Virus record (IMG/VR): IMGVR_UViG_3300008110_001145
Coordinates: 1-25,412 of that record
Source of the DNA: a virus
Direction: 5' to 3' (one strand)
DNA: 25,412 nt
The position numbers and the translations under genes are program-made. Each line of letters begins with the position of its first letter. Within the stretch, counting starts at the first letter, position 1. Shown piece after piece: positions 968 to 25,123 of the stretch. Below the pieces are notes generated by a model that searched no databases, was not told the DNA's origin, and saw only the letters and a program-made list of their open reading frames with translations.

Positions 968-1303
968 TTATTCAGAAAACCATTCATCCGGTATTACCTT
1001 ATCCGCATATTTAAAACCATTCTTCTCACACCAATCGGCATAAGTGGTTTTGGATTTTTTATTGATTTTATTTTTTGAATTTGTAAAAACAAAACGAATA
1101 TCCAATTCGGGATTTTGTTGTTTTACTAAAAGGTGTTTTTTCCTATCTGCTAATACGAATCTACCTTTTGTTTCTACTCTGATACCATTCGGTAACTTAA
1201 AATCAGGATGGTAAGTATGTTCAGAAGCAGGTATAATATAAGATACCTCTTCGGACTCATATTGGACAGATAATCCTCTATTTTTTGTAACTTTTTTTGC
1301 CAT
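968..1303 (-). CDS. T7 endonuclease I-like Holliday junction resolvase, N-terminally short
   Basis: 111 aa. The sequence lines up with phage T7 endonuclease I (gp3, 149 aa) from T7 residue 22 onward: YIIPASEHTYHPDF, LPNGIRVETKG, DRKKHLLVKQQNPELDIR and KYADKVIPDEW all have close T7 counterparts. Asp34, Glu44 and Lys46 correspond to the T7 catalytic residues Asp55, Glu65 and Lys67. The enzyme should cut branched DNA during replication, recombination or packaging. The N-terminal T7 segment that carries catalytic Glu20 and contributes to the dimer is missing: an in-frame TAA lies three codons upstream of the ATG, and that region codes for the preceding gene. The protein may be inactive, may use another acidic residue, or may be a trimmed variant of the family. 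It sits between the primase and a 69-aa unknown. Confidence 0.9.
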   Translation of the reverse strand: MAKKVTKNRGLSVQYESEEVSYIIPASEHTYHPDFKLPNGIRVETKGRFVLADRKKHLLVKQQNPELDIRFVFTNSKNKINKKSKTTYADWCEKNGFKYADKVIPDEWFSE

Positions 1304-2004: not shown

Positions 2005-2994
2005 TTATGTATCAAATCTAATAATAAAGTTCAAAGGAATATCAGGTTCGGATTTAATGGGTTTTGGTAATTTTGCAACCGCTATTAAATCACAATTATC
2101 ATCGTATAATCCTACCGTAGTTATGAAAGGTGTTAAGAAAGAGCCTGTAGAATCAACCGAAGAACTTAAATAATAATGTTCAAATCCACCGGATACCCAA
2201 GTATTTGTTATAGATGAAGATATTGAACCGGAGTATGTATAATCCATAATATCACCATTTTCTAAAGTGCTTCTTTTTCTTATATACTTTACACCAGGAT
2301 TAGTTATAACATTAAATGTTTTACCATCGGAATCCGTAAAACTTGCGGTTTCTCTACCCACTAATACATATGCAGATGGGTTAGTTGAAACATTAAATTC
2401 GCTCTCATTTAAAACAAGCAAATACTCATACTCATATATTGTTTCGGTTGATTTATAATTCAATTCCCAACTTGAAGTTAGCATTGAATTTGAACCGCTT
2501 GTTATTACAATTAAACCTTGACTATAAAAAATATTTCCAATTCTATGCGTACTACCACTAACTAAATTACCATGTTTATCATCTAAATATTCAGTAGTAC
2601 CATTTAAAAGGGATACTGATCCTTTTTTTATACCTTCACCGATATTAATTTGTGGTATTGATATTACTTTTGCATCTGTTCCTAAAAATCTTTCTTTATT
2701 TGAACTATCCGTATTATATACATTTGTTTTATCTCCAAATCTTATAAACGGATTATCCTCATTACCATTATAAAATTGTGCACGTAATTGTCCGTATACG
2801 GAATGTGGATAATATAATCTAGTTTCATCTGTGTTTGAAACCGTAGATGATTCAAAATCATTCACAACGTTTCCAATACTTGCACTATATATAAAAACTG
2901 ATGATCCCGATGCGTTTGTTTCATCAAAGGACCATTCTTTATAAACCTTAAAAGGTCTAATACTAATATCAGATTTTGGTATTCTTTTTAACAT
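2005..2994 (-). CDS. Virion structural protein, paralogue A (TTVGLYDD family)
   Basis: 329 aa from the ATG at 2994 (MLKRIPKSDISIRPFKVYKEW). A TTG at 3021 also opens the frame but lies in the T-rich tail of a terminator and is unlikely to be used. The protein is Ser/Thr/Asn-rich and beta-predicted, typical of phage fibre or baseplate proteins. It shares with the protein encoded just upstream (3090-4346) the block VYGQLR near residue 80, a middle block with a Phe/Glu-rich strand before NPS, and the C-terminal TTVGLYDDNCDLIAVAKLPK. The pair therefore looks like an old tandem duplication. A virion location is inferred from the baseplate genes before it; no enzyme motif is visible. The terminator at its 5' side implies a separate promoter or read-through. 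Confidence 0.75.
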   Translation of the reverse strand: MLKRIPKSDISIRPFKVYKEWSFDETNASGSSVFIYSASIGNVVNDFESSTVSNTDETRLYYPHSVYGQLRAQFYNGNEDNPFIRFGDKTNVYNTDSSNKERFLGTDAKVISIPQINIGEGIKKGSVSLLNGTTEYLDDKHGNLVSGSTHRIGNIFYSQGLIVITSGSNSMLTSSWELNYKSTETIYEYEYLLVLNESEFNVSTNPSAYVLVGRETASFTDSDGKTFNVITNPGVKYIRKRSTLENGDIMDYTYSGSISSSITNTWVSGGFEHYYLSSSVDSTGSFLTPFITTVGLYDDNCDLIAVAKLPKPIKSEPDIPLNFIIRFDT

Positions 2995-3020
2995 ATCACA
3001 TATAAATATCTCAATAAACA

Positions 3021-3048
3021 AAAACCCAATCTTGGTAGGTTGGGTTTT
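3021..3048 (-). terminator. Rho-independent terminator between the paralogues
   Basis: On the minus strand AAAACCCAA and TTGGGTTTT form a perfect 9-bp stem around a 10-base loop. The run TTTTTGTTTATT follows, giving the U-rich tail. It lies downstream of the stop at 3090 and upstream of the ATG at 2994, so it would end the long baseplate transcript or reduce expression of paralogue A. The T-tail supports the minus-strand direction. Confidence 0.7.
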
Positions 3049-3089: not shown

Positions 3090-3962
3090 TTAGAAATCTA
3101 ATTTAACTTTAATTGCAACTTCCTTATCAAAGGATTTTTCAATCGGTTTGGATACTTTTGCAACGGCCAATAGTTCATTTGCATCATCATACAATCCAAC
3201 CGTAGTTACATATACTCTAGGATTTTTTTCAAATGTTGATTGAACAAATTGTCCTGTTGATCCTGTTACAAATGTTGGATTATTTGAGAAATTAAACTCT
3301 CTATTGTTTGCTCTTACAAAGTAATGTGATGTAGAAACGTTTTCGGTTCTACGAGCTTGGAAATCTGCACCAGAGTTTAATGAATTAAACAATGCAACCG
3401 AACCCGAATTACTTGTATATGTTGATCCGCTTAATGAATTATTGTGATATACACCAACCATACTATTACCCGCTCTAGCAAGCTTACCATCTACATCTTT
3501 TAATGCGGTAGGGTTGAGTAGTATAATACCCATATCAGGATAGAATAATCCCCATCCTTGATTACCATTTGCAGTTGAACAGGTATAGGTATTTATAGAT
3601 GCGGTTAATGCAGTTCCAATATTCAACGAACCACTAACCATATTATATACTCTTCCTGATGTAGATACGTTTTCATCCGTTCCACCACTATCATCAATCA
3701 ATGTTACAGTTTTACTTGCTCCGGATAGTGTTATTGAAATATTTCCTGGATCCAATCTTTCTTTATATCTTGATCTGTTTATGTTTATTGCGTAAAATGC
3801 ATCCAAATCAGTAGCTCCTGCAACAGTTCCACCATATACACTAAATTTTTGATCTCCTGTACCAAGTAAAACGTTTCTCAATTGAGAATATACCGCCTTT
3901 GTCGATAAAAATGATTTATCATCTTGCTCTAATGTCGGTGCACCCCATCCATCTACATCACC
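3090..3962 (-). CDS. Virion structural protein, paralogue B, C-terminal part after in-frame TAA
   Basis: This open frame starts directly after the TAA at 3963-3965 and is in the same frame as the upstream 127-aa reading frame. Its first codons read GDVDGWGAPTLEQDD and then KSFLSTKAVYSQLR, the latter matching VYGQLR in paralogue A, so codons upstream of the first usable initiator (TTG at 3881) clearly code for protein. There is no ATG, GTG or TTG between 3962 and 3882. The C-terminus carries TTVGLYDDANELLAVAKVSK, the family mark shared with paralogue A. The simplest reading is that this and the upstream frame are one 418-aa protein with one nonsense codon. If only the TTG is used, a 263-aa fragment lacking the conserved block would result. 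Function: virion, probably fibre or peripheral baseplate, by context. Confidence 0.75.
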   Translation of the reverse strand, partial: GDVDGWGAPTLEQDDKSFLSTKAVYSQLRNVLLGTGDQKFSVYGGTVAGATDLDAFYAININRSRYKERLDPGNISITLSGASKTVTLIDDSGGTDENVSTSGRVYNMVSGSLNIGTALTASINTYTCSTANGNQGWGLFYPDMGIILLNPTALKDVDGKLARAGNSMVGVYHNNSLSGSTYTSNSGSVALFNSLNSGADFQARRTENVSTSHYFVRANNREFNFSNNPTFVTGSTGQFVQSTFEKNPRVYVTTVGLYDDANELLAVAKVSKPIEKSFDKEVAIKVKLDF

Positions 3963-4346
3963 TTATGCGATAGAAAATTGAACCTCTTCTGATCCAGTAT
4001 TTGCAGATGCGTATACATCTATATAATACTTTCCACTTACATCGTTGAGTTGTTCGGATGATGTATAAAATGCAGTTAAAGATCCAGTATCATTACTCCA
4101 TATACCAGAAGTAACAATCTCCGTTCTGTTTGTCACTTTATCAACCGGGCCGAATTTTTTATAAATACCATTGGTTATGGTTGTAAATTCTGCACTTATT
4201 TGTTCACCTTGTCCTAAAAATTGGTTTACAATGTTTACCAATTCATTTGTATCAAGGGGAGTACCGGAAGTGTTTGCAACCGCAGCTAAGTACTGTGATA
4301 AGTTACTTGCTAAAAGGGCCCCTCTATTGTCTCTAATTATTGCCAT
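3963..4346 (-). CDS. Virion structural protein, paralogue B, N-terminal part ending at TAA
   Basis: 127 aa, starting at ATG 4346 (MAIIRDNRGALLASNLSQ) eight bases after the stop of the preceding gene. The N-terminal part (residues 1-65) is predicted helical; the rest is beta-rich and Ser/Thr-rich, ending EEVQFSIA followed by TAA. If the TAA were a Tyr codon the protein would run on without any frame change as FSIAYGDVDGWGAP into the downstream frame, which holds the blocks conserved in paralogue A. I therefore treat this as the front third of one gene interrupted by a nonsense codon. It could also be an independent short protein with the downstream part made separately, but the lack of any initiator right after the stop argues against that. 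Confidence 0.75.
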   Translation of the reverse strand: MAIIRDNRGALLASNLSQYLAAVANTSGTPLDTNELVNIVNQFLGQGEQISAEFTTITNGIYKKFGPVDKVTNRTEIVTSGIWSNDTGSLTAFYTSSEQLNDVSGKYYIDVYASANTGSEEVQFSIA

Positions 4347-5025: not shown

Positions 5026-8000
5026 TTACTCAACTTCCAAAATTGGTTCACTTGAATCCCTTCCTGCTTTATTTACTCTCAATGTATTTGGATTGGTAAC
5101 GAAAACCTCAACAGGAGGAGAACCATCCAATGTAGTTGCCGCTGTATTTTTAGATCCTCTGTAATATGAGTTTTCCAACCCTCTTGTCAAATCACCAACT
5201 CTCTTATAATGATATTGTGTATAACCATCAACAGGAACTACACTTGTTATTCTGCCACCAACTACTGGGAATCCACCATATGTAGTGACCGTGCCAGGAG
5301 TAGTTACAAAATCCAAATTATTTCCAGTTGCAGTTGCTCCTAAATAATTATCAAGTCCTGTAAGCGTTGCATTATATACCGTTCCTGTGGTTTGTGGATA
5401 CCTAAATTGCAACTCATCGGTTTGAATATTTAAAATTATCAAATCAGCGGTGTATGATACTAAATCGGAATCTAAAAATGTTATTTCATCATTTTCTAAA
5501 TCTATTGCCGGTATTGTAATATTATCACCAACCGTTAATGGTGTTAGTGGTTTTATATTAAGAGTCCTTTCTTCGTATGGTATTTCTGTAATGTTATAAC
5601 CGGCTCTAGGGTCACCCACACCATCAATAAATTCTTTAAATGTAACGTGTGTTTTAACTTTTGCTTCCGTTAGATAATAAACTATAACTCTTTCGGTTTG
5701 TAATATACCATTCGAATCATAATAAGATCTTATAGAATGACCATGCATCGAGTAAATACCAAATCCCAAATTTTCGGATGCATCCTGTCCAAATGTTGAA
5801 AACGATTGGTTTTGTGATTCAATTTGTAAAGTTGGATCATCGGATTTTGCATCGATATTCGTTTCGTAGTATTCATTTTCAGCTGACAACAAATTTGTTT
5901 CATCTAAATTTATAAACCCATCGTTTTGATACTCATCAGCTGATAAAGTATCAATAGTAGTATCATTTATATTTGTTTCATATTGATTATCCTCACCGCC
6001 CAATTCATACTCATCGTTGGCATCAATATACAAATTAATATCTGAAGTCTCTGCAGAAAGTATTCTATTTTCAGTAGTATCTAATTCAGATTCATTATAA
6101 TCATTTGATCCTGTTGGTTTATTTTGTTGTATTTTACTCCTTTCTAAAAAGTGAGGTTCAATTAATAAACCGGTCGTTGCCTTAACCCTTGCCGGTAACA
6201 TCTTCTTAATATCATCAAACATAGATTTCTCATATAGTTTGATGAGATTTATATATTCGTATATATCTCTGTTATCGTATCTTTTAAAATAATAATTTCT
6301 TAATTCATCCAACGATTTATAGTTAGATTTGTATCTATCTGCCGGATTTCCAATATAATTATCTAAATTAAAACCCCCAATGGATTTTGCAATATCAATA
6401 TTCAGTTCTTTTGTAGGAGAAAAGAATAAACCAACTCTATTAGAATCTACCGGAGCTTGATCAAATGCTTTTTTAGTAACCCTACTCTTTACGGATAAAT
6501 CCACACCAACACTTCCGGATATTTTTTCACCATCTAATGTATATTGTGATTCAAATCTAACTTTATTTGTAGAATATCTTGATGAACCTATGTTTGGTAT
6601 TTCCAATACATTGGATCTCTCTATACTTTGAAAATTAAACGGATATTCTGTAATATTATCAAAACCGACTGCAGATGCGGAGTATATTGTATACGCATTA
6701 TTAGAAAAAATAGTAGATCCTGATATTATGTTAATTTGTTCCGTTTCTAAATCATTTCGGCTAACACTACTACTAAAATATATGTTAGTATCAACATTAA
6801 TAAGTGATGAAGTTTCTGCTAAATTTTTAGGATATTCAAAATCTAAACGAAAATACAAATCGGAAGTAGATGCAGTTATACTATTACCATTTACCATCTC
6901 TGGAAACGATACGTGTTGGTAAAACACATCTTTATTGAGTGGTTCACTCCACAAACGAAACTCATCCAAACTACCACTATAACTTTGGTTGTTTCCTATT
7001 CTTAATATACTACCTAATTCATAATTATGAGAAACGGGCGATGTGGTTACACTATCTTCAAATATTGTTTTTTCGTTGTTTGTTTGTTTAACACTTAAAA
7101 TAAATGTATCATTTGGAGATCCTATTTCTCTTGTTAAACAAACTCCAAAAAAAGAACCATTGAATATTGGTAAAGTGGATGTTTGTAAAACACCTGCTCC
7201 ATAATCAAATATAACTTTACCATATTTACTATCAACCGAACCACTTAATGATATGTTCCAATCACCACTACCTGTGACAAGTGTCCATTCATCCGCATAT
7301 GCCGGTCTTACGAACATTTCAATTGTATCTGGCCTTCTACCCTTGTCCGTATCTTTCCACGGCATTTCTATATATGCACCATCATTGAAAACCAATGCAT
7401 TTGATATATTATCAAAAACAAATTTTGATTTATTAGTTTCCAAATCGGTTGGTTCCGGACCACCAAATTCTATTATAGATAAATTAGATGCAGGAATACC
7501 ATAACATGCCATTAATGCATATATTCCTCTACGTGATCCTTTATGTTTTAAAAGATATGGTAAGTTATTTACTATTCTTCTCCATACCTCATTTGTTCTT
7601 GCTTTTACTGGATTTGTTTGTGTAGTATTACCATCGGAATCCATACCAAATACCAACTTCCAAAGTTGTGCATTTGAATCTAATGTCAATGCATTCCAAT
7701 TAAAGGACTTTAAAGTATCGTATAATAATTTATCAGATATTCCATTCTTTGATTTGTATCCTAATCCTCTATTTTTTTCAATTGCTTTTGTGTAAAAATA
7801 TATGTTATCAAAATGGTGTCCTATCATTGAAAGAAATAACAAGTAACTTTCATTTTCAGAATAATCGGATATGTATGCCGGTATGTTATTAAGAACATAG
7901 TTATAGTTCATAGTATCATAATCCTCAGCCAATTCTATTATAGTTTCATACCAATCTGTAACTTCCGTTGATGTACTATTTTTTCTGCTATTTCCTGAAT

Positions 8001-12928: not shown

Positions 12929-13908
12929 TATTCTACTATTTCAAACATAAATTTATTATCAATTATAGTCGATATTCCACTCTCTTCTACCTTTATTTTT
13001 AACAAATAATTTCGTGTCATTGGTAATGTTGATAAATCTAATTTAAAATAATTTCCATTAGAATCACAACTAACTTTTGAATACTCTCCAAATGGAACTA
13101 TTACATCCCTTGTAACATAATCTTCTAACTGATAGTATGTTGATCCTGTTGGTAAGTACTTAATCTGATCGTATTGAAACGTTGATCCAAATGATTTTAA
13201 TGGAAACATATCTCTTATCACATAAGAACTATCATCCCAAACCAATTCTAATTTTGGTTCGTATATTGTATTTGTTTCTTTTGAAAAAAACTTTATAACA
13301 CCGTAATCCAATGTATTATTATATTCGTTGTTAAGACTATGATGTAATATAAATCCATTATTTGGAAGTGTTCCACTAATCCACAATTTAACTATATCCG
13401 TTACATCCATTCTCAAATCCGATACTTCATAATTGAAAGATTGCGATGCCTCACTTGCCGTATACCAAGTACCACCCTCCGCATTTGCGGAACCCGTAGT
13501 TCCAACAGCATATGTTGCAGTACCACCGATAGTATTATCTTGCCATTTATTTATTCCATCTCTATATTTCCAACTTACACCATCTGTTGTTATATTATCA
13601 AATCTAGTACCTGTTCCCATTGTCCAACTTTGTGAAACGGCGTTTGCGTATATCGTATACTCCAACGGAATCTCTTCAGCAACGGCGGTCTTTAGGTTTA
13701 AATAACATTTCCAACTTCCCGTAATACTATTGGTATGTAATGATTGTGATACAGAATCTACATTAAATTTTATTAAACTCCTTGAAATATCTTTTATATC
13801 TCCGTAATAAAGTTTACCAACTTCTAATAAACCATCTCTACCGGCGTTTTGATCCGGTTGTTGAAGATAAATACTGGCATCGTATGATGATGAAAATAGT
13901 TTATGCAT
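12928..13908 (-). CDS. DNRLRE-like beta-sandwich virion protein
   Basis: 326 aa. The first 215 residues follow the layout of DNRLRE/CBM96-like domains: an opening SYDASIYLQQPDQNAG, a GLLEVGKLYYGD strand, SRSLIKFNVDSV, a tryptophan-rich middle (SWKYRDGINKWQD, GGTWYTA), SFNYEVSDLRMDVTDIVKLW with SGTLPNNGFILHH, and a late FFSKETNTIYEPKLELVW. In other proteins such domains attach to carbohydrate or build surface appendages. The last 100 residues are a further beta domain. The gene overlaps gp6 upstream and the coiled-coil gene downstream by one base each, so it is made in step with the wedge. Its place directly after gp6 suggests a peripheral wedge component; carbohydrate binding is inference. 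Confidence 0.6.
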   Translation of the reverse strand: MHKLFSSSYDASIYLQQPDQNAGRDGLLEVGKLYYGDIKDISRSLIKFNVDSVSQSLHTNSITGSWKCYLNLKTAVAEEIPLEYTIYANAVSQSWTMGTGTRFDNITTDGVSWKYRDGINKWQDNTIGGTATYAVGTTGSANAEGGTWYTASEASQSFNYEVSDLRMDVTDIVKLWISGTLPNNGFILHHSLNNEYNNTLDYGVIKFFSKETNTIYEPKLELVWDDSSYVIRDMFPLKSFGSTFQYDQIKYLPTGSTYYQLEDYVTRDVIVPFGEYSKVSCDSNGNYFKLDLSTLPMTRNYLLKIKVEESGISTIIDNKFMFEIVE

Positions 13909-15932
13909 TATAAGGCCCTCCCTTTTATGTCTTTATTAGGATATTTAACTTCAAAAACACAAGGATCTAAAGATGGATAAACTATTTTACCCTCTGTGGC
14001 TTCCTGTATGTTGTACCTATTTGGTGAGTAGTTTCCACCATCACTTGCACACAAATTATATATTTTAACAGATGGAACACTCATTACACCTTCTACGTTT
14101 GCAATTATTAATTCTAATTCAGATATATTAATTGGTTTATTAAATGTCCAATTATCTATGTTGAAATAATCTTGTAACTCATTTATACACTTTGTTATAA
14201 CTTCACTTTTATTATATTCGGAATAAACTATTATTTCAAAATCGCACCCTATATTAACTATAAAACCATCTATTATATTGACGGCATCGGTTACCATTCT
14301 ATATTCACCTATATATGTTTTTAAATTTTCTTTAACCGCCTGATTAAGGTTTGTCAATTTTTTATTTGCATCAAACCCTAAAACATACATATTAATTGCA
14401 AACGGGTTGTTTACTTCTGATATAGATGTTTTCTTTTGTGTTAAATATTTAACTAATTCTTTTTGAATATCCTGTCTATTTTTATCTTTCAATCCTTCAA
14501 CCACACCAACAAATTCTGCTATATTTTTTGGTGATGCTAATATAGATGCAGGAGAATTATTATCTATTTCCCCATCCGGACTTACATATACTTTTGCAAC
14601 ACTTCCGTATCTCTCTGGCATAGATAATGCTCTAACCACATAATCCTCCCTAGTTACTGCTCTGTTTTGTGAACCGAATGTTGCTAAACCGTTTTGCCTT
14701 ATTTCTTCAATGGATTCCGAACCCCTACCACCGGTTGCAGATTCCTCATTTTCTACTGCAATAGAATTTTTCATACTCTCATATAATGGTAGATTTACAT
14801 CTGGTATTGATAACAAATCTTCATCAAATTCTATTCTATTTATGGTTGTCAAATCTCCCTGATTTACATTAGATTCCACTCCACCACCTACCAAATATTT
14901 TACGGTTAACGTTCTCCCGGCCGGCGCTATACCAAATGTGTTTGTTTTTAAAAAATTAGATGGGTCAATTCCCTGATTTACTCTTTTTATAGAATTTGCA
15001 AGTCCTAACCCTAAATTTTTAGAATTTGGTAATATTATTTCATCACTCATATTCACATCACCGCTACCAAATTGTATAGTAGTAGTATTATCTGAATTTA
15101 TTAAAACACAAAATCTTCTTGGTGCTTTTTGTAATTCCAATATATACGGAACGGTATTCGAATATTGTGATGAATTACTATTAATATCCGTATTTGGTTT
15201 TTCTACAAAAACACTTTCTTGTGCCAAATATGGTACTTCATAATATTTGTTATTATTTTCATCCGTTATAGATGTTATTTCTATGATATTGGTATCATTA
15301 ATGTTTACGGTTGGATAATCTAAATTGCCGGCTGGCACAAAAATGGTTGTAGAAACTTCATTTGCTGAAATTGCTTTTACTTTTTTTGTTATTAAATAGA
15401 ATGTTGGTTCTCCGGTTGTAGTGTTTCTTTCGTGCACCGATATTTCCCTATCGGTTTCGCTTGCAAAATCAACAACATCTGTGGTTCTAAATATTACATT
15501 TGAATTAGTAGTAGATGCAACCTGAAGTCCTTCACTTATTTTTAAATAATAATTTTCGTCCGGTTCATAGTTAGGTGACCCCTTTGATGGAACCAATTGA
15601 TAAACGGTTAATGTTGTAACCGCCGGTGTTGTTACCTTTGGTTTATATCCCATCGCCTGTGCCAATGCCATAACATTTTTTCTCTCCGTTGCATATGCAA
15701 GCATTGATTCTTTTAATTGAGTATCTTGATAAAAAGATAAAACATCACCAATTGCCGCAGCCTGCTCTATAAAGACCATACCAGGCGACGCCTCATTAAA
15801 ATCGGAGTAGGTATTTGGGAAGTAAGTTTTTGTGTAATCTATTAAATTTTGTTTTAATGATTCAAAATCCTTACCGACATAGTTTATGTCTTTATTTGTA
15901 CCCCAAGATTTTTTTACACTTTTTATAGCCAT
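13908..15932 (-). CDS. gp6: Baseplate wedge protein gp6 (baseplate J-like)
   Basis: 674 aa, close to T4 gp6 (660 aa). The N-terminus has the typical order: GKDFESLKQNLIDYTKTYFP, then NEASPGMVFIEQAAAIGDVL, FYQDTQLKESMLAYATERKN and a helix ending in MGYKP. A later segment with GRGSESIEEIRQNGLATFGS and AVTREDYVVRALSMP is the core of the baseplate_J family, and the C-terminal part has the ferredoxin-like folds with VNIIDGFIVNIGCDFEI. In contractile machines gp6 dimers with gp7 form the inner iris around the tube; P2 gpJ is the equivalent. It starts two bases after gp25, as in many phages of this type, and overlaps the DNRLRE-like gene by one base. Confidence 0.92.
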   Translation of the reverse strand: MAIKSVKKSWGTNKDINYVGKDFESLKQNLIDYTKTYFPNTYSDFNEASPGMVFIEQAAAIGDVLSFYQDTQLKESMLAYATERKNVMALAQAMGYKPKVTTPAVTTLTVYQLVPSKGSPNYEPDENYYLKISEGLQVASTTNSNVIFRTTDVVDFASETDREISVHERNTTTGEPTFYLITKKVKAISANEVSTTIFVPAGNLDYPTVNINDTNIIEITSITDENNNKYYEVPYLAQESVFVEKPNTDINSNSSQYSNTVPYILELQKAPRRFCVLINSDNTTTIQFGSGDVNMSDEIILPNSKNLGLGLANSIKRVNQGIDPSNFLKTNTFGIAPAGRTLTVKYLVGGGVESNVNQGDLTTINRIEFDEDLLSIPDVNLPLYESMKNSIAVENEESATGGRGSESIEEIRQNGLATFGSQNRAVTREDYVVRALSMPERYGSVAKVYVSPDGEIDNNSPASILASPKNIAEFVGVVEGLKDKNRQDIQKELVKYLTQKKTSISEVNNPFAINMYVLGFDANKKLTNLNQAVKENLKTYIGEYRMVTDAVNIIDGFIVNIGCDFEIIVYSEYNKSEVITKCINELQDYFNIDNWTFNKPINISELELIIANVEGVMSVPSVKIYNLCASDGGNYSPNRYNIQEATEGKIVYPSLDPCVFEVKYPNKDIKGRAL

Positions 15933-15934
15933 TA

Positions 15935-16372
15935 TTAGTTATTTAATACAATTTTTACAGAGTCTCTTAAATTTGGATTAGATGTTAAAGAAAAATTAAT
16001 TTCTAAACCTATCCTATTATTATCCTTTTGTTCATCATCACTATCTATGATGATTTGATTTATGCTCAAATATGGTAACCAAATATTAACGGCCTCTACT
16101 ATTGAATTTTCTATTAAAAAATCTATATCTCCATCAACCGATTGTTCGAATATAACCTTCCAAATATCACATCCAAAATCAGGTTGCATTAACCTTTCAC
16201 CTTTTTGTGTTAATAATAAATTTTTAATATTATTTTTTGCTTGAGATAATGTAGTATAGTTAGTAGCAAATATACCATCAGTTTCGGGATTAATATTAAT
16301 ACCGATACCAATTTTTTTATAACTATTTTCAGTTAAATCATTTACATTTACTTTACCTAACTCTATTGCCAT
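15935..16372 (-). CDS. gp25: Baseplate wedge protein gp25 (GPW/gp25 family)
   Basis: 145 aa (T4 gp25 is 132 aa). The family core is visible: ATNYTTLSQAKNNIKNLLLT then QKGERLMQPDFGCDIWKVIF and, after a short loop, an acidic helix and an amphipathic segment (NIWLPYLSINQIII). The LLLTQKGERLMQPDFG turn is the hallmark of the lysozyme-like gp25/gpW family, which joins the wedge to the sheath and is needed for sheath assembly. The ATG overlaps the stop of the 157-aa gene by one base, and gp6 follows two bases after its stop, so wedge proteins are translated together. Confidence 0.93.
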   Translation of the reverse strand: MAIELGKVNVNDLTENSYKKIGIGININPETDGIFATNYTTLSQAKNNIKNLLLTQKGERLMQPDFGCDIWKVIFEQSVDGDIDFLIENSIVEAVNIWLPYLSINQIIIDSDDEQKDNNRIGLEINFSLTSNPNLRDSVKIVLNN

Positions 16373-16880: not shown

Positions 16881-17429
16881 TTAATCAGGTACAACATACC
16901 CAGACCATGGTAAAACTCCTGGTGCAGGTGGTGCTGGTGGTGGATACTGTGCTAATACAACGTACAATCCACTAACCGTTGATAAATGAATTTTTGCAGC
17001 CGTAATGAACGCATTCAAAAAAACAGATGAATCATTATTTGGGGGAACAGGTATTGGACTCCAAGTTCCCGGATTCAATACCGTACCCTGTGTTAATACA
17101 ATATTTGCTATTGCTCCGGGTGCCGGAATCAATGGTGGTATTGGTGCCATAGTTCCACCTGCCCAATATGATATTATCGCAGGTCCTATAACATCCAATA
17201 GTGTAAGTGATTTAGACATTTGTGTTTGCGTTAAAAAAGATATTAATTGAGCTTCCATCGCAGCCGGGTTACCTTTTAATAGAGGAATTGGATTTATTGT
17301 TTCCTTTCCAGATTTTATTGCAATATCATATGCGGTTGTAAATGCTTTTGCAAATCCATTTATATTATTCCCAAACAAATTTGATTGCATGGCGGGTAGT
17401 AAAGTCGATTTAAATGTTGTCCATGACAT
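16881..17429 (-). CDS. Hypothetical 182-aa protein of the baseplate cluster
   Basis: The protein begins MSWTTFKSTLLPAMQSNLFG and is mostly helical to about residue 90, with moderately hydrophobic stretches (SLTLLDVIGPAIISYWAGG). A Pro/Ile/Gly-rich turn (MAPIPPLIPAPGAIANIVL) precedes GTVLNPGTWSPIPVPPNN, then a further helix (FLNAFITAAKIHLSTVSGLY) and a Pro-rich tail (PPPAPPAPG). I associate this arrangement with unassigned structural proteins in T4-like phages but cannot name it. The ATG overlaps the stop of the frame encoding the C-terminal part of the OB-fold protein by one base, so it is translationally coupled to the hub or spike gene. A structural role near the baseplate is inferred. Confidence 0.65.
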   Translation of the reverse strand: MSWTTFKSTLLPAMQSNLFGNNINGFAKAFTTAYDIAIKSGKETINPIPLLKGNPAAMEAQLISFLTQTQMSKSLTLLDVIGPAIISYWAGGTMAPIPPLIPAPGAIANIVLTQGTVLNPGTWSPIPVPPNNDSSVFLNAFITAAKIHLSTVSGLYVVLAQYPPPAPPAPGVLPWSGYVVPD

Positions 17430-17707
17430 TACTTTGATAAAAAGTTTGTACTCGATAAGAGTTTGTTTAACTTATTTTTAATCGATGTAAAGGTTGCTCT
17501 ATTTACAGGTCCTGTTGCAGATGGTCCAGATGGTGTCAGATATTGTTGTTGGTTTATAGCATCGATTAACTCTTTCATAATTGCTACCAATTCACCACCC
17601 AATACCATCTTTTGTACATCTGCACCGTCGTTTCCTTCACCTTTATTTTTTCCTAAATATACTTTACCGTTTTCGGAATTCAGAATTAATAAATAACTGA
17701 TCTCCAT
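17429..17707 (-). CDS. gp5/VgrG-like protein, C-terminal part in shifted frame
   Basis: 92 aa. The frame is open only from the ATG at 17707, because a TAG precedes it directly; it overlaps the end of the 270-aa frame by 44 bases. After about ten residues without obvious meaning it reads ILNSENGKVYLGKNKG, then VQKMVLGGELVAIMKELIDA and a C-terminal helical LSSTNFLSK. That series (Asn-Ser strand, YLG, a VLGxxL helix, then a final helix) is what I expect at the C-terminus of gp5/VgrG-like spike proteins, following on from the GDQLFINSE that ends the upstream frame. I infer one 348-aa protein split by a +1 shift somewhere in 17664-17707. A genuine separate small gene is possible but less likely. 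Confidence 0.7.
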   Translation of the reverse strand: MEISYLLILNSENGKVYLGKNKGEGNDGADVQKMVLGGELVAIMKELIDAINQQQYLTPSGPSATGPVNRATFTSIKNKLNKLLSSTNFLSK

Positions 17708-18476
17708 CTAAATCTTTTGAATTAGGATAATTTTTAAATCCTACTTTTTGTTTTTTTATAGTTTCTTTGAAAGGTATTTTTACCTTACCAGATGTTATGT
17801 ATACCGATGTACCATCTTTATTTATATCCTCTTCTACTAATTCTCCAATTTTTTTATTGTCAAATTCTGGATTTTGTTTATTGCGGATGAATATAGATGG
17901 AGATGATGTTTTGTTATCTGCTGACAAAAAGAATTCGGAAAATCTAATAGTATTACCAACTCTACCACTTATAATTGTATCACCTTCTTTTGGTTTTAAA
18001 TATTTTACCTTTTCCTTTACCTCATAACTTTTCTTTTTTGATTCTGTTAAGTTTGGTTTAGTATTTGGTGTGCCGGTTGATTTATTTTCTTTATATTGTT
18101 GGTTTTTGGAAGTATTATCCAAATTTTCTAATTCTTTATCTTTTGAAGCTTCGGATATTTTATAATCTTCTCTATAATTTGGATATTGATTATTAGAAAA
18201 TGGCATCCAAAAATATTCTCTATTGTTTATTATAATAAAAACGGTTTCACCAACTATTGGAAACGTCATATTATTTTTATCAAACGGAAATGCGTAATTT
18301 TCTAATTTATACGAATTATCTCTTGCAAATTCGATTGCACCCAAAAAGCGGCTATCTTTGCCCAAAAAGTTTTTATTATTGTTATAATATTTAACAAAAT
18401 CATTTTGAGTATCTAATTCTTTGAAATCATCTTCCGATAGATATACCTTTTTAACAGTTGCTAAAAATGCTTCCAT
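17664..18476 (-). CDS. gp5/VgrG-like OB-fold baseplate hub protein, N-terminal part
   Basis: 270 aa. Residues about 70-95 (FPIVGETVFIIINNREYFWM) have the shape of an OB-fold strand pair from gp5/VgrG/gpV-type spike proteins. After a Lys/Asn/Ser-rich linker (residues 105-155), residues about 160-265 give EGDTIISGRVGNTIRF, SPSIFIRNKQNPEFD, EDINKDGTSVYITSG and GDQLFINSE, the beta pattern that leads into the spike part of this family. No lysozyme domain like that in T4 gp5 is seen. The frame then runs into FRKR and TAA at 17664, while the expected continuation is in the +1 frame. The ATG overlaps the stop of the coiled-coil gene by one base. Hub or spike assignment is moderate; the frame break is well supported. 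Confidence 0.7.
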   Translation of the reverse strand: MEAFLATVKKVYLSEDDFKELDTQNDFVKYYNNNKNFLGKDSRFLGAIEFARDNSYKLENYAFPFDKNNMTFPIVGETVFIIINNREYFWMPFSNNQYPNYREDYKISEASKDKELENLDNTSKNQQYKENKSTGTPNTKPNLTESKKKSYEVKEKVKYLKPKEGDTIISGRVGNTIRFSEFFLSADNKTSSPSIFIRNKQNPEFDNKKIGELVEEDINKDGTSVYITSGKVKIPFKETIKKQKVGFKNYPNSKDLDGDQLFINSEFRKR

Positions 18477-18906: not shown

Positions 18907-19647
18907 TTATTTACTTATCAAATAATTACCCAATACCAAATAATCCATATCACAATTTAAAAATGTCCAAATTGCTTTTTCTGGATCGTTGGTCATTGTG
19001 TGGTCTTTTAAATTAAACGATGTATTTAATAAAATAGGTGTTCCTGTTATCTTTTCAAATTCCTTTAATAAATTATAATAGAGTGGGTTTTGTTCTCTTT
19101 TTACCGTCTGTATTCTTGCTGAATTATCAACATGAGTTACGGATGGAATCCGTATTTCGGAAATAACTTGAACGACTTGATTCATATATGGTACATCCTC
19201 TTCCGATTTAAAGTATTTTTGATAATCCTCATGTGTTACCGATGGAGCAAAGGGTCTAAACATTTCTCTCTTTTTGACAACCTTATTAATTCTATCTCTA
19301 ATATCTGGAAGATGTGGATTACCCAATATAGAACGATTACCCAATGCTCTTGCACCAAATTCCGTTCTACTTTGAAACCACCCAACAATACTACCACCTT
19401 TTATTAGATTTGCTACCACTTTACACAACTCATCATCATCACCTATAAACTGAATTCGTACTTCATTGTTAGTTTTAGTAATAATATCAAATAATTCATC
19501 ATCACTCCACTCCGGCCCCAAATATGGTGATTGATTATCACCACCTTTTACTTTAGGGTTTCCCAATGTGATATGCCAATGCCATAAACATGCACCAATT
19601 GCAGAGCCTGCATCTGATGGTGCAAATTGCAAATGGAATCCAAACAT
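18907..19647 (-). CDS. Carbamoyltransferase, C-terminal part after frameshift
   Basis: In this frame the codons after the duplication read FAPSDAGSAIGACLWHWHIT and continue to the stop at 18907. GGSIVGWFQSRTEFGARALG then NRSILGNPHLPDIRDRINKV and REMFRPFAPSV are the signature of the C-terminal domain of NodU/CmcH carbamoyltransferases. The ATG-like entry at 19647 (MFGFHLQ) lies before the duplication and is not a real start: those residues are out of register with the family. Removing one copy of the 7-bp repeat joins this part in frame to the N-terminal part at ...NVWIPFAPSDAGSA. On its own it would lack the N-terminal kinase-like domain and be inactive. Confidence 0.93.
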   Translation of the reverse strand: MFGFHLQFAPSDAGSAIGACLWHWHITLGNPKVKGGDNQSPYLGPEWSDDELFDIITKTNNEVRIQFIGDDDELCKVVANLIKGGSIVGWFQSRTEFGARALGNRSILGNPHLPDIRDRINKVVKKREMFRPFAPSVTHEDYQKYFKSEEDVPYMNQVVQVISEIRIPSVTHVDNSARIQTVKREQNPLYYNLLKEFEKITGTPILLNTSFNLKDHTMTNDPEKAIWTFLNCDMDYLVLGNYLISK

Positions 19648-20626
19648 TTTTAAAATTAGTATGGTGTTTTATTTTACCATTGGCAGTTCCGTTATACGCA
19701 CATCCACCACCCAATACCAAATTAGGACTACTCCAATTACTATTAACTCTATTCAATATAAAATAAAATATCTTTTCATACCATCTTTGTAACGCTGCGG
19801 CCAAATCTTTATGATGTTGCTCAATTGGTTCATCTTTAAAACGAGGTAAAAATCCAATCAACTTTATTAAGTTTTGATTGAACATATCGTTTTCGGATTT
19901 TTCGTATGTAAAGTATTTTTGATTTATTTGTAATAATTCTCCCAATCTATCATACTTTTCTATTTTTTCGAAAATATGTTCATATTTTGATGCATCACCA
20001 TATGGTGCCAATCCCATAACTTTATACTCACCTTCATTTGGTTTGAATCCCAAATAAGCAGTAAATGCGGAATAAACTAATCCCAATGAATTTGGAAATG
20101 TTACTCTTGTAAGTTCTTGAAATTTACCATCTCTACAAAGTGTTGCTAATATGGTTTCTTCTTCACCAACCCCATCAACGGAAACACCAATCGCAGAATC
20201 AAATGGTGATGTGTAATAAGAAAATGCTAAATGTGAAAGATGATGCTTTGTGTAAACTACTACACCATCGTATCCGATGGATTCTAATATTCCACTTATA
20301 TTACCTTCACCCTGTGACCATCTTTTAAGAAATCCTTTCCATTTACCATTTGCAGAGTTTATTAAAAAATCTTTCCAATTTCCTGTAATGGATTTTTTAA
20401 CTCTTTTAAATTTTAAATTAGGTTCTTCATACCAGCACACCATATCAACCTCATCAATTGTAATTTGTGCGTAATCTAATACCCATTGGATTGCCTTAAA
20501 CGGAAAAGAACTATCGTGCTTTATACCCGATAGTTTCTCTTCTTCGATTGCTGCTATTACTTTTCCATCAATAACCAATGCTGCTGCGGAATCGTGGTAG
20601 AATCCTGATAATCCTAGTTGAATCAT
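19553..20626 (-). CDS. Carbamoyltransferase (NodU/CmcH family), N-terminal part before frameshift
   Basis: 357 aa, of which about the first 330 are genuine. MIQLGLSGFYHDSAAALVID and AAIEEEKLSGIKHD open the ASKHA-like fold; KHHLSHLAFSYYTSPFD and VSVDGVGEEETI are the metal/phosphate loops; NLVLGGGCAYNGTANGKI is the conserved glycine motif before the linker. The last residues (AICTIRCRLCNWCMF...) are out-of-frame translation caused by the duplication at 19621-19634. Enzymes of this family move a carbamoyl group from carbamoyl phosphate to a hydroxyl, on sugars, antibiotics or, in some phages, possibly modified bases. Without the extra 7 bases the gene (20626-18907) would encode 570 aa, the usual family length. 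It follows the sigma factor by two bases. Confidence 0.95.
   Translation of the reverse strand: MIQLGLSGFYHDSAAALVIDGKVIAAIEEEKLSGIKHDSSFPFKAIQWVLDYAQITIDEVDMVCWYEEPNLKFKRVKKSITGNWKDFLINSANGKWKGFLKRWSQGEGNISGILESIGYDGVVVYTKHHLSHLAFSYYTSPFDSAIGVSVDGVGEEETILATLCRDGKFQELTRVTFPNSLGLVYSAFTAYLGFKPNEGEYKVMGLAPYGDASKYEHIFEKIEKYDRLGELLQINQKYFTYEKSENDMFNQNLIKLIGFLPRFKDEPIEQHHKDLAAALQRWYEKIFYFILNRVNSNWSSPNLVLGGGCAYNGTANGKIKHHTNFKNVWIPFAICTIRCRLCNWCMFMALAYHIGKP
19621..19634 (-). repeat. 7-bp tandem duplication causing frameshift
   Basis: Plus-strand TGCAAAT occurs twice in a row (19621-19627 and 19628-19634); on the coding strand this is ATTTGCAATTTGCA. With one copy, CCA TTT GCA CCA TCA GAT GCA gives PFAPSDA, the residues conserved in carbamoyltransferases. 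The second copy shifts the frame. Confidence 0.95.
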
Positions 20627-20628
20627 AA

Positions 20629-21318
20629 TTAAATTTTAATATCTCCGTTTTTATCAAATTCATTATATAACTCCAATTGTTTTTCTTTCATTTTATTTAC
20701 AACTTTTGTTATATAGTGAGTGGGGTGTCCTGTCATTTCTCTTATTAAAAGATACAAAGATTTTTTGTTAAAGTTTTCTATATACTCTGCTCTTCTAAAT
20801 AGTTCCAACACAGCATCTGCGATTTGCATATCTCTCTTTTTTGGAAAGTAATTTTCTAAATGCCTATCCCAATACTCCAACATTAAATTGTTAAAAACTC
20901 TATATTCATCATTTCTAACTTCTTCTCTAAAATTATTTTCTTTATCCCAACTTTCTGGCATATTTGAAATAACATCTGTATCTTTATATCGTTTGTAATT
21001 TGCATTATTATTTAAAATAAGATAGTTCCTTGCAACAATAGTAAAATAGGAAAACGCCTTACCTTTACCTGCTCTATACATATGTATCTTTTCAATCATA
21101 AAGGTCACCACTTCTGACATAACATCTTGTGGGTCATCATCAAAATATGTAAACTTCCATTTGTTATATACTATTTCCGCCAGTTTATCAAAAGCGGATT
21201 TTATACGTTCTCTATAAATTTTATCTTTTAATAACTGGTCTTCCGTAGAATTATATTCTATGATAGCATCTTCCGTATCTTTTGTAAAATATTGTTTTTG
21301 ATTTTTCTTTCTTGGCAT
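20629..21318 (-). CDS. gp55: Late-gene RNA polymerase sigma factor, gp55-like
   Basis: 229 aa. The start MPRKKNQKQYFTKDTEDAI and following EYNSTEDQLLKDKIYRERI, PQDVMSEVVTFMIEKIHMYR and AGKGKAFSYFTIVARNYLIL are the sigma region-2-like core found in T4 gp55 relatives. The run AFSYFTIVARNYLIL is the most telling. The C-terminal part is helical (KSLYLLIREMTGHPTHYITK) and may reflect a region-4-like or dimer element. The protein would bind host RNA polymerase core and direct it to late promoters together with the sliding clamp and a co-activator. T4 gp55 is 185 aa. It is flanked by a small membrane protein and the carbamoyltransferase, with two-base gaps on each side. Confidence 0.88.
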   Translation of the reverse strand: MPRKKNQKQYFTKDTEDAIIEYNSTEDQLLKDKIYRERIKSAFDKLAEIVYNKWKFTYFDDDPQDVMSEVVTFMIEKIHMYRAGKGKAFSYFTIVARNYLILNNNANYKRYKDTDVISNMPESWDKENNFREEVRNDEYRVFNNLMLEYWDRHLENYFPKKRDMQIADAVLELFRRAEYIENFNKKSLYLLIREMTGHPTHYITKVVNKMKEKQLELYNEFDKNGDIKI

Positions 21319-21320
21319 TT

Positions 21321-21581
21321 TTATTGTTTTTTGAATCGTTCAATAGTTTCTTTTATTTGATAAAATATAGAACCTACATCATCATCCTTCTCAAACATTT
21401 GACGTTCATCAATTTGTCTTAATGCTTCCAGTAATGCTTCGTTTCTTTTTATTTCCGACTGAATGAAGTTTTGATTTTCTTCAATTATATCTTCGTATTT
21501 TTCTAATTTTTTAAATAAATTAAAAATTATATAAATAGATAATCCAAATAATATTGATATTATAAATAATGATGTTTCCAT
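21321..21581 (-). CDS. Small membrane protein with coiled coil
   Basis: 86 aa. Residues about 4-23 (SLFIISILFGLSIYIIFNLF) are a single membrane segment, followed by a charged helical stretch (residues 24-64) with heptad character. The C-terminus has MFEKDDDVGSIFYQIKETIE, an acidic-hydrophobic motif. I associate similar motifs with small unassigned proteins next to gp55-like genes, but cannot name a function. The gene lies one base after the peptide deformylase stop and two before the sigma factor start, so it is co-transcribed with both. The C-terminal motif might be a binding peptide for a replication or transcription partner; that is speculation. Confidence 0.7.
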   Translation of the reverse strand: METSLFIISILFGLSIYIIFNLFKKLEKYEDIIEENQNFIQSEIKRNEALLEALRQIDERQMFEKDDDVGSIFYQIKETIERFKKQ

Positions 21582-21582
21582 A

Positions 21583-22218
21583 TTAAACTATTTCATACCC
21601 TTTTAAAAAATAACCGTTTGCTTTTTTATATTTTACTTCTACCATTTCCCCGTCAGGTGATTTCATTACAACTTTATCATTTCTACCATAAGTTTGATTT
21701 TTAACAACCGTAGTAGTGTAAACTCTATCTTTAATTGTAAATCCATCCAAATGGTCAATCTCATGTTGAACAATGACGGTCATCATCGTTTCTTTGGAAA
21801 TTTGTTCACCTGCTTTATCACCATCCGGATTAATTTCAAAAGTTAATTCACCCAAATTATCCGTATCTATTACAACTTTACATGCTCTAATAGTTCTGAT
21901 TGGTCTTTCAATTGTTCTTGGAATAGAAAGACACCCTTCATAGAATAAAAATCCTTCTTTTGACTTTTCTTTAACAATGGGGTTTAAAAGAAATAATTCT
22001 TCATCTCCAAATCTAATTAAACATGCTCTTTTTTTAATTCCCAATTGAGTTGCAGAAATACCCAAACCAGGATAAGTTGCCATACCCATTGATAAAGTAT
22101 CTCTTAACATATCAGCTTCTTCTTGGGTCATTTCCGTTTTAGGACATGGTGTTTTTAGATATTCTCTAAATTCTTTAGTTTCAAAACCATTTTTGTCTTT
22201 GTCAATTACTAATTTCAT
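21583..22218 (-). CDS. def: Peptide deformylase
   Basis: 211 aa with all three catalytic motifs. Motif 1 is GLGISATQ at residues 51-58, motif 2 is EGCLSIP at 94-100 with metal ligand Cys96, and motif 3 is QHEIDH at 151-156 with His152, Glu153 and His156. The enzyme removes the formyl group from new N-terminal methionines, using Fe(II) or another metal. Phages carry their own copy to keep up with high protein synthesis or to favour chosen proteins; in some cyanophages photosystem proteins are the proposed targets. The C-terminal extension after the HExDH helix (about 50 residues) is longer than in phage minimal forms. Its start overlaps the end of the DUF2061 gene by 17 bases, suggesting coupled translation. 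Confidence 0.97.
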   Translation of the reverse strand: MKLVIDKDKNGFETKEFREYLKTPCPKTEMTQEEADMLRDTLSMGMATYPGLGISATQLGIKKRACLIRFGDEELFLLNPIVKEKSKEGFLFYEGCLSIPRTIERPIRTIRACKVVIDTDNLGELTFEINPDGDKAGEQISKETMMTVIVQHEIDHLDGFTIKDRVYTTTVVKNQTYGRNDKVVMKSPDGEMVEVKYKKANGYFLKGYEIV

Positions 22219-22429
22219 TTTTTTTGTTTTTTAATCCATATGGTATGTATTGATACCATAATCTTTCGTGAATAAAATATATTAAGGGTTTAAATAATAG
22301 TTCTGCTACACCAACCATTCCTGCCCATTTAATAGGTAATCCTGCTGCAAGTGTAAGGAGTATTGTTGTTACAGTTCCAATAATTCTATAACTTATGCTT
22401 TTTGCTATATGTCTTTTAACTAAAGGCAT
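22202..22429 (-). CDS. DUF2061 family membrane protein
   Basis: 75 aa. The pattern KRHIAKSISYRIIGTVTTIL, then a second hydrophobic segment around GMVGVAELLFKPLIYFIHER ending in LWYQYIPYG, fits DUF2061: an amphipathic first helix with the Ser-x-Arg motif, two membrane segments and the terminal HER-x-W. The family is widespread in bacteria and of unknown function; in sulfate-assimilation loci some members are fused to or next to other enzymes. In this phage it sits between an oxygenase gene (one-base overlap) and peptide deformylase (17-base overlap). The short basic C-terminus (KNKKNEISN) is probably cytoplasmic. Confidence 0.85.
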   Translation of the reverse strand: MPLVKRHIAKSISYRIIGTVTTILLTLAAGLPIKWAGMVGVAELLFKPLIYFIHERLWYQYIPYGLKNKKNEISN

Positions 22430-22968
22430 TATAATAATGTTTTTTTATCTTTTATAACAAAATCAAACGGGCATATTAAACTATATCGTATACCACTTGT
22501 GACGGGTAATACTCTATGTGATAACTTATTACTGGAAATTATCATCATATTTTTTTTGGGATTTATTTTTATTTTTTTATTATTTTCATCAATATATTCA
22601 AATTCACCACCTTCAAAATCATCGTTCAAATATAAAATTGTAGTAATATCACACATATCATAGTGAAAATTATCATTTTTATTGGAATCAAAATCCACTT
22701 TATTTAACCAAATTGTATTTTGTAATAAAATATCGCATGGTATTGTACCGGTTTTTTTAACAGAACTTTTTGTCCTTAATACTATTTTAGCAAAAATATC
22801 TTTTAAATTTGGAGCATTTTTACTTATAAAAAACCTATTATAATAGTTTTTACCACCATCAGGCCCTTCTTTTGGTGTTTCTGATATTACAAACCCATCG
22901 CATAGTTCTTGTAATTTTTTGTTATCATCTATATCTAATAAATCAAAATTATTTTCTATTATAATCAT
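22429..22968 (-). CDS. 2OG-Fe(II) oxygenase (prolyl-hydroxylase-like)
   Basis: 179 aa. The double-stranded beta-helix motifs are present: His102 and Asp104 in NFHYDMCD (HxD), strand TTILYLNDDFEGGEFEY, then His151 in KLSHRVLPV and Arg161 in GIRYSLICPF, which would bind Fe(II) and the 2-oxoglutarate carboxylate. The spacing fits the family of small 2OG oxygenases often carried by T4-like phages. Substrate is unknown; protein prolyl or other side-chain hydroxylation is the usual guess. It overlaps the DUF2061 gene by one base and starts eight bases after the nucleotidyltransferase stop. A second possible oxygenase is two genes upstream. Confidence 0.85.
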   Translation of the reverse strand: MIIIENNFDLLDIDDNKKLQELCDGFVISETPKEGPDGGKNYYNRFFISKNAPNLKDIFAKIVLRTKSSVKKTGTIPCDILLQNTIWLNKVDFDSNKNDNFHYDMCDITTILYLNDDFEGGEFEYIDENNKKIKINPKKNMMIISSNKLSHRVLPVTSGIRYSLICPFDFVIKDKKTLL

Positions 22969-22976
22969 AATCCACT

Positions 22977-23354
22977 TTATTTATCTACCGAATACAATAT
23001 TACATCCCCATTAGAATCCATATAACCCTGTCTAATTTTTGTACCACTAATTGATTCTATATCAGCTGGCGGTTCGTGATATATTACTTCATAACCAACA
23101 CCTCTACCATAATTTACACTTTCAATATCTGGAATAATTGATATAAATAATTTATCCCAATTTTGTTGGAAGAATGGTTCATTTTGTAACATTACTAACA
23201 CTTCATTTGCTGATTTGGGGTTGTTCTCATCTTTTGGAACATCTCTAATTGCTACCCAAACATTTTTTCCTTTATCCATTTGTTGACGGATTAACCATTC
23301 GTGTCCTTTGTGCCAGTTCTGCCATCTTCCAATATACAATGCGTATTTTTTCAT
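22977..23354 (-). CDS. Nucleotidyltransferase, NMN adenylyltransferase-like
   Basis: 125 aa from the ATG at 23354 (MKKYALYIGRWQNWHKGHEW). A TTG 13 codons upstream also opens the frame but lies inside the upstream 57-aa gene, so I prefer the ATG, two bases after that gene's stop. GRWQ at residues 9-12 and HKGH at 15-18 form the HxGH nucleotide-binding motif, and ISGTKIR at 102-108 is the second family motif (ISGT-x-IR). These mark the cytidylyltransferase-like superfamily, which includes NadM, NadR and phage NMN adenylyltransferases. The likely reaction joins NMN and ATP to NAD+, but other nucleotidyl transfers are possible. It is shorter than typical NadM (about 170 aa). A role in NAD+ supply or in countering NAD-depleting defence is inference. 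Confidence 0.75.
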   Translation of the reverse strand: MKKYALYIGRWQNWHKGHEWLIRQQMDKGKNVWVAIRDVPKDENNPKSANEVLVMLQNEPFFQQNWDKLFISIIPDIESVNYGRGVGYEVIYHEPPADIESISGTKIRQGYMDSNGDVILYSVDK

Positions 23355-23356
23355 AA

Positions 23357-23530
23357 TTAATTTTTTTCTATTAGTGATTCTATTAATACCCAACCAAAGA
23401 ATAAGATACCAATTGGCAAGTTAACCGAATATCCCAAACTAACTGCCAATCCCAATCCTATTACCGTTTTAATCGATTTAAATCCATCTTTAAGCGTTCT
23501 TTTATACCAATAATCAAAGTAGTTTCTCAT
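23357..23530 (-). CDS. Small 57-aa membrane protein
   Basis: The frame runs from an ATG at 23530 to TAA at 23357-23359. It begins MRNYFDYWYKRTLKDG and then has a hydrophobic stretch from about residue 22 to 52 (TVIGLGLAVSLGY, then LPIGILFFGWVLIESLI), enough for one long or two short membrane segments, ending EKN. The gene fits tightly: two bases before the nucleotidyltransferase ATG and one base after the oxygenase stop. The basic N-terminus (YKRTLK) should stay in the cytoplasm. No family is recognised. Together with the 86-aa and DUF2061 proteins it is the third small membrane protein in this accessory stretch. Confidence 0.7.
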   Translation of the reverse strand: MRNYFDYWYKRTLKDGFKSIKTVIGLGLAVSLGYSVNLPIGILFFGWVLIESLIEKN

Positions 23531-23531
23531 T

Positions 23532-24170
23532 TTATAATATAGTTTTTTGTTTTTTTAAATATTCAAATCCAATGTTTCCTGCTATTACTACCCTATCCGT
23601 TGTAGAATTTGGTGCATCATTTGGAGCATGTGGAATATCTGCATTCATTACAATTAAATCATCCTCACATGGTCTATACCAATATTCTTTTTGATTTTCA
23701 CCGATAAAATATAAAACACCATCCTCATCATTCATAATATTTGGCATCTGTAAATAATAAACAAATGTATATGTTGGTATAAACATTTCTTTTTGCTTAT
23801 TAATTTCAGAATGTGTGTGATACATTTTTTTATTACCATACCGATATCTTTGTGTTGGGTTTACGGATTTAACCACATTTATCCAAGTTTCTATGTTTAT
23901 TTTATTAAATAATGATTTTGTTTCATTTGTATATAATTCTTTACAATTATCAATTGAATACTGTGTGACTAAATCTATTTCATTTTTAATATCAATAGTT
24001 CCATCGAATTCATTATTAGTTGATATAATAAGACCATATGCATCGTTATTAATATTTTTTGATGAATTTATTATATTATTGACTAAATTAATTAAATCAT
24101 TTTTTTTATCACAAAGATTTAACTTTGTTTTCCAAATATATGTTGAATTATCAAATATTAACTTTTTCAT
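23532..24170 (-). CDS. Possible 2OG-Fe(II) oxygenase or cupin-like protein
   Basis: 212 aa. The N-terminal 100 residues are Asn/Asp/Lys-rich without a clear signature. From about residue 110 a beta-helix pattern appears: MYHTHSEIN gives His120-x-Glu122 as a possible metal site, then MFIPTYTFVYYLQMP, EDGVLYFIG, CEDDLIVMNADIPHAPNDAP with His181, and DRVVIAGNIGFEY with Arg193. This HxE...H...R order fits 2OG-Fe(II) oxygenases or a related cupin. Assignment is weaker than for the oxygenase at 22429-22968, to which it may be distantly related. It starts eight bases after the UV endonuclease stop and ends one base before the 57-aa gene. Confidence 0.6.
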   Translation of the reverse strand: MKKLIFDNSTYIWKTKLNLCDKKNDLINLVNNIINSSKNINNDAYGLIISTNNEFDGTIDIKNEIDLVTQYSIDNCKELYTNETKSLFNKINIETWINVVKSVNPTQRYRYGNKKMYHTHSEINKQKEMFIPTYTFVYYLQMPNIMNDEDGVLYFIGENQKEYWYRPCEDDLIVMNADIPHAPNDAPNSTTDRVVIAGNIGFEYLKKQKTIL

Positions 24171-24178
24171 TTATAAAT

Positions 24179-25123
24179 TTACAATGTATATGATTCAACC
24201 GAACTTAACCCACTATATTCACAAATATTTTTAGTAGTAATAAATGGTAGTATTGCCAATTCTTTTGCTTTTGCTTCAACCATAATATCTACATCCAATC
24301 CGTAAGTATTTGGAAGAGAATTAATGTAATCGGAATGTGCCTGTGGTTTAAGTTTGATGTTATTTTCGTGTAATGCCTTTGATTCGGAATAATGTACTTC
24401 CTGTGTGATACCCATTGGCCAAGTTGTTGCTGCCAATTTAAGTGCATCCTCTTCGGATAAATCTCCTGTACAAAATTGATGATGGTGGTAATCAAATACA
24501 ATAGGAATGCCGGTTCTTTCGTGAATGTACATCAAATCTCTTACGGAATACATGCTATTCTTATCATCATTTTCTAATGTAAGCCGCTTTTGAACCGATT
24601 TAGAACACCTTTTGAAATTTGTGATAAATCTATCCATTGCACTCTTTTTATCTCCGTAAACCCCATTACAATGAATATTAATGTTATTGTAAGGTGATTT
24701 ATCTAATCCCATCATATCAAATATCTTACCATGTAGTTCCAAATCCGCAATAGCGTTTTCAACTACCGATTCTTTTGGTGATGTTAGTACACAAAATGGA
24801 CCAGGGTGAGAATTTATACGCATATTGTGAAATTTAGCAAAATCACCTGCTTTTTTCAATTCTCTTTTAATTTCTTTGTAATCTTTAAGTTGGGTTAGGT
24901 CGATGTGGTCACCCCAAGGAATTACCGCCGATGATAAACGGAAGAATTTAATTCTATTCATTCTGTTCCACTCTAAAATTCTAATAATATCCGAAGAATT
25001 CTTAAGTGCAAGTTCGGAAACGTAATCTAAACCTTTGGTGTTGAAGGTTTTCTTAACCATAGCACGATTTGTACTTACGTGCTTACCCATTGTCATATTA
25101 ATACATGCATATCCTATATTCAT
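24179..25123 (-). CDS. uvsE: UV damage endonuclease (UvdE/UvsE)
   Basis: 314 aa, close to the bacterial UvsE length. The TIM-barrel motifs are easy to follow: MNIGYACINMT at the N-terminus, IKFFRLSSAVIPWG around residue 58, AKFHNMRINSHPGPFCVL near 95, NNINIHCNGVYGDK near 147, KRLTLENDD near 180 and IVFDYHHHQFC near 210. The His, Glu and Asp residues in these motifs bind the metal cluster. The enzyme nicks DNA 5' of UV photoproducts such as pyrimidine dimers and starts repair. T4 uses the unrelated DenV for this job, so this phage has a different solution, fitting exposure to sunlight. A gap of 39 bases separates it from the preceding partial gene. Confidence 0.96.
   Translation of the reverse strand: MNIGYACINMTMGKHVSTNRAMVKKTFNTKGLDYVSELALKNSSDIIRILEWNRMNRIKFFRLSSAVIPWGDHIDLTQLKDYKEIKRELKKAGDFAKFHNMRINSHPGPFCVLTSPKESVVENAIADLELHGKIFDMMGLDKSPYNNINIHCNGVYGDKKSAMDRFITNFKRCSKSVQKRLTLENDDKNSMYSVRDLMYIHERTGIPIVFDYHHHQFCTGDLSEEDALKLAATTWPMGITQEVHYSESKALHENNIKLKPQAHSDYINSLPNTYGLDVDIMVEAKAKELAILPFITTKNICEYSGLSSVESYTL

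Follow-up and report, generated by a model that had tools for sequence, protein, structure and literature searches.

An in-frame TAA private to one contig interrupts a conserved tail-region gene of a T4-like phage and is most likely a sequence or assembly error

Described relatives and the interrupted gene

In phage Q-beta, the stop of the coat-protein gene is a fixed feature of the virus, and its read-through yields the extended A1 protein, which is part of the virion. The locus studied here is like A1 in idea, in that one virion gene would give two forms via a leaky stop, but the stop is constant in Q-beta, whereas here it is private to one contig. Homologues were also found in two isolate phages. 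The hypothetical protein WWT39514.1 of Microcystis phage Mel-JY01 aligned with residues 68-418 of the gene product at 39.5% identity, carries Tyr where the window has the TAA, and occupies the same spot in the tail-gene order, but it is encoded by one unbroken CDS and is without the N-terminal ~60 residues. Similarly, the hypothetical protein immuto35A_164 of Flavobacterium phage vB_FspM_immuto aligned with residues 62-418 at 34.4% identity and follows the baseplate wedge gene in the same gene order; it differs in having a Phe at the TAA site and, again, a single unbroken CDS. The shared gene order, together with homology along most of the length, places all three proteins in one family.

The window, which is the whole 25,412-nucleotide stretch analysed (positions 1 to 25,412 of IMG/VR record IMGVR_UViG_3300008110_001145), comes from a T4-like (contractile-tail) environmental phage. 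The interrupted gene lies in its tail/baseplate region, downstream of the baseplate wedge genes (gp6-like, 13908-15932; gp25-like, 15935-16372), and the gene order matches that of immuto. Given this position, it is fair to regard the gene as a putative virion gene. Pfam, PHROGs and PDB sequence searches with its product returned no family. AlphaFold modelled the product with moderate confidence (mean pLDDT 57.8); a Foldseek search with that model gave no match below E = 0.38. A literature search on this phage type found nothing. The features of the gene are as follows:

3090..4346, minus strand: conserved 418-codon tail/baseplate-region gene, interrupted by TAA here only (80 homologues over residues 1-418)
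3966..4346, minus strand: 5' part, the 127 codons that precede the TAA (reading-frame translation)
3963..3965, minus strand: codon 128, an in-frame TAA here and TAT (Tyr) in each of the 80 homologues (homologue codons)
3090..3962, minus strand: 3' part, 290 codons, holding the most conserved region (homologue alignment)

Translation of the minus strand from 4346 to 3966 gave 127 amino acids ending in EEVQFSIA, followed by the TAA at 3965-3963 and then by 290 open codons up to the terminal TAA at 3092-3090. The first 27 codons after the internal TAA contain no ATG, GTG or TTG; TTG first occurs at codon 156 and ATG at codon 236. Apart from these two positions and the strand, which it left unstated, a sequence-only reading of the window had described the same features, and translation and a codon check bore them out.

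The codon at the TAA site

From an IMG/VR scan we kept 80 homologues that were 70-100% identical to the gene and all matched residues 1-418. The position of the TAA was occupied by TAT in every one of them, and by a stop in none. The gene was unbroken in 79 of the 80; the exception, L054 (913-2086, 92% identical), is frameshifted elsewhere, near residue 323. A scan of genome contigs added one more homologue, on a Roseiflexaceae MAG contig, which also has Tyr at this site. The earlier guess of a Tyr codon was right. The continuity of the frame is not due to chance: the homologue alignment runs from residue 1 to 418 with no gap or break where the TAA stands, and the 290 codons past the TAA are the remainder of the gene. 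The isolate phages, each with one CDS, agree with this single-gene reading. A product stopping at residue 127 would be without the family's best-conserved part.

The Tyr at this site is encoded by TAT in 80 of 80 homologues, while all other conserved Tyr columns show some TAC (5 to 55 of 80). This position may be under a mild codon constraint, with the counts taken regardless of kinship among the sequences.

Two of the homologues, L002 and L003, are contigs from other metagenomes with 99.948-99.959% DNA identity to the window over 3.8-4.8 kb. Over this length only two bases differ from the window, at 3563, an N/D difference at codon 262, and at 3963, the stop itself. When IMG/VR was scanned with a pattern admitting either allele, only L002 and L003 were returned, both with TAT. 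Since the TAA is private to the contig, it reflects either a mistake in sequencing or assembly or a one-off mutation rather than a new two-protein mechanism. The earlier observation and its single-gene reading are correct, but what was found is ordinary. Comparison with near-identical contigs settles the gene structure here and also reveals several private gene-breaking lesions; we suggest that an in-frame stop in a lone metagenomic phage contig be compared in this way before recoding is proposed.

Private lesions and the origin of the stop

The TAA belongs to a lesion-rich contig. Three other private lesions that break genes were found in the window:

1281..1283, minus strand: point at which a T7-endonuclease-I-like resolvase gene (968-1303) has privately lost 75 bp in frame (L002/L003 comparison)
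17680..17688, minus strand: junction of a private ~160-bp deletion in a tail-region gene (unbroken ORF in L083)
19617..19630, minus strand: private 7-bp tandem duplication in a carbamoyltransferase gene (18907-20626; relatives' alignment)

The resolvase copies in L002 and L003 hold 25 extra codons, including SGLEE, and the intact copy matches PF05367 (E = 1.6e-57). The 75-bp deletion takes out FKSGLEES, the first Glu of which aligns with Glu20 of T7 endonuclease I, an established catalytic residue. The deletion thus removes the catalytic Glu of the resolvase. The ~160-bp deletion splits a 404-codon gene, which is one unbroken ORF in L083, into frames 17664-18476 and 17429-17707, and this frameshift is supported by the ORFs of 39 relatives. 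None of the relatives that could be aligned over this site has the 7-bp duplication, L083 (99.7% identity) among them; here the ORFs of 52 relatives show the frameshift, and the intact carbamoyltransferase copy in L083 matches PF02543/PF16861. Counting only lesions supported by 24 or more relatives, there are 3 in the 25 kb of the window versus ~6 in 1,363 kb of related loci, a contrast that is somewhat inflated, as the related loci had been selected for matching well and so appear to have a lower rate. Among the other substitutions between the window and its siblings, three could be polarised (3563, 15333 and 19978), and at these the state in the window is common among relatives, and so the four lesions are its only private derived changes in the ~13.6 kb compared.

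Lesions were also seen in related contigs. L003 is without 149 bp (window 6112-6260) of a 1797-aa tail gene that are present in the window and in more distant relatives; this deletion breaks the frame and is private to L003. Well-supported private stops or frameshifts were found in addition at L044:4445, L093:1600 and 4800, L034:900 and L148:1100, and such lesions are therefore general, if rare, in these assemblies.

The carbamoyltransferase gene stands at the start of a region (18907-25123) in which phage-borne metabolic and repair genes lie beside the tail genes. Judged by eye from the translations, this region also encodes a peptide deformylase, two 2OG-oxygenase-like proteins, a nucleotidyltransferase and a UV-endonuclease-like protein.

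We consider a sequence or assembly error to be the probable source of the TAA, in view of the three other private lesions that break genes in this contig. The gene is a single continuous 418-codon frame, and the TAA would be a single wrong base in the consensus of this contig, at a codon for Tyr throughout the close family. We infer that the cause was technical rather than a real mutation.

A true nonsense mutation of recent date, in a phage genome that is defective or in the minority, is possible but clearly less likely. The truncated product would then be missing the 290 conserved residues of the C-terminus, and this gene and the three others would be dead or complemented in mixed infection. 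Recent decay is indeed what four independent gene-breaking lesions on a single contig resemble, and both the separate break of this gene in L054 and the private deletion in the large tail gene of L003 are consistent with it. Real damage in a defective genome is also made possible by the 75-bp and ~160-bp deletions, since these have little homology at their junctions and are atypical of the products of point errors. Gradual decay, however, would bring private silent and missense changes, none of which were present in the stretches compared, and the near-identical contigs are intact at every lesion site. For these two reasons we favor error over real damage. It is highly improbable that the TAA is instead a real allele of a sub-population, tolerated because suppression or the intact protein comes from the host or from co-infecting phages, with a genome of four broken genes persisting as a defective, complemented element.

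Rejected readings: read-through, suppression and a separate downstream gene

The sequence-only reading had also offered ochre read-through or suppression, with a 127-aa and a 418-aa form made from one virion gene. In its favor, the frame does stay open for 290 codons beyond the TAA. Relatives would be expected to keep a programmed read-through stop, flanked by coding sequence before and after it, but no stop stands at this site in any of the 80 homologues or in the isolate phages, and the TAT in the near-identical contigs contradicts the proposal. The codon also falls within a predicted beta-strand (residues 122-130 of the moderate-confidence model), not at a domain border. In a phage that recodes or suppresses ochre codons, TAA should be avoided as a terminator and frequent within frames, and a suppressor tRNA should be present; the window does not fit this description. 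TAA terminates 25 of the 26 gene frames inspected, and the window, part of a record that is itself a fragment, yielded no tRNA gene, which makes ochre reassignment or general suppression very unlikely. If TAA were generally read as a residue, translation would extend past nearly every gene end. Read-through and recoding were thus rejected on the conservation of Tyr and the use of TAA as a terminator, and with the stop private and three other private gene-breaking lesions in the contig, we regard a programmed two-form mechanism as highly improbable.

Least probable of all is a division into two genes with the second one beginning downstream of the TAA: a TTG-started 263-aa frame does begin at 3881, but this TTG encodes the Leu in the VYSQLR stretch, and in none of the homologues is there a boundary at this point or a start belonging to the 3' part itself. 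A separate downstream gene was rejected because the unbroken homologues contradict it. The VYSQLR stretch has its counterpart in the neighboring gene:

2005..3021, minus strand: adjacent paralogue (BLASTP E = 6e-9, C-terminus; alignment)

The C-terminal 55 amino acids of the two products are 40% identical in BLASTP. VYSQLR aligned with VYGQLR of the paralogue, in agreement with the likeness that had been noticed between KAVYSQLR and VYGQLR. The true start of the paralogue likely lies inside its listed frame, at MLKRIPKSD.
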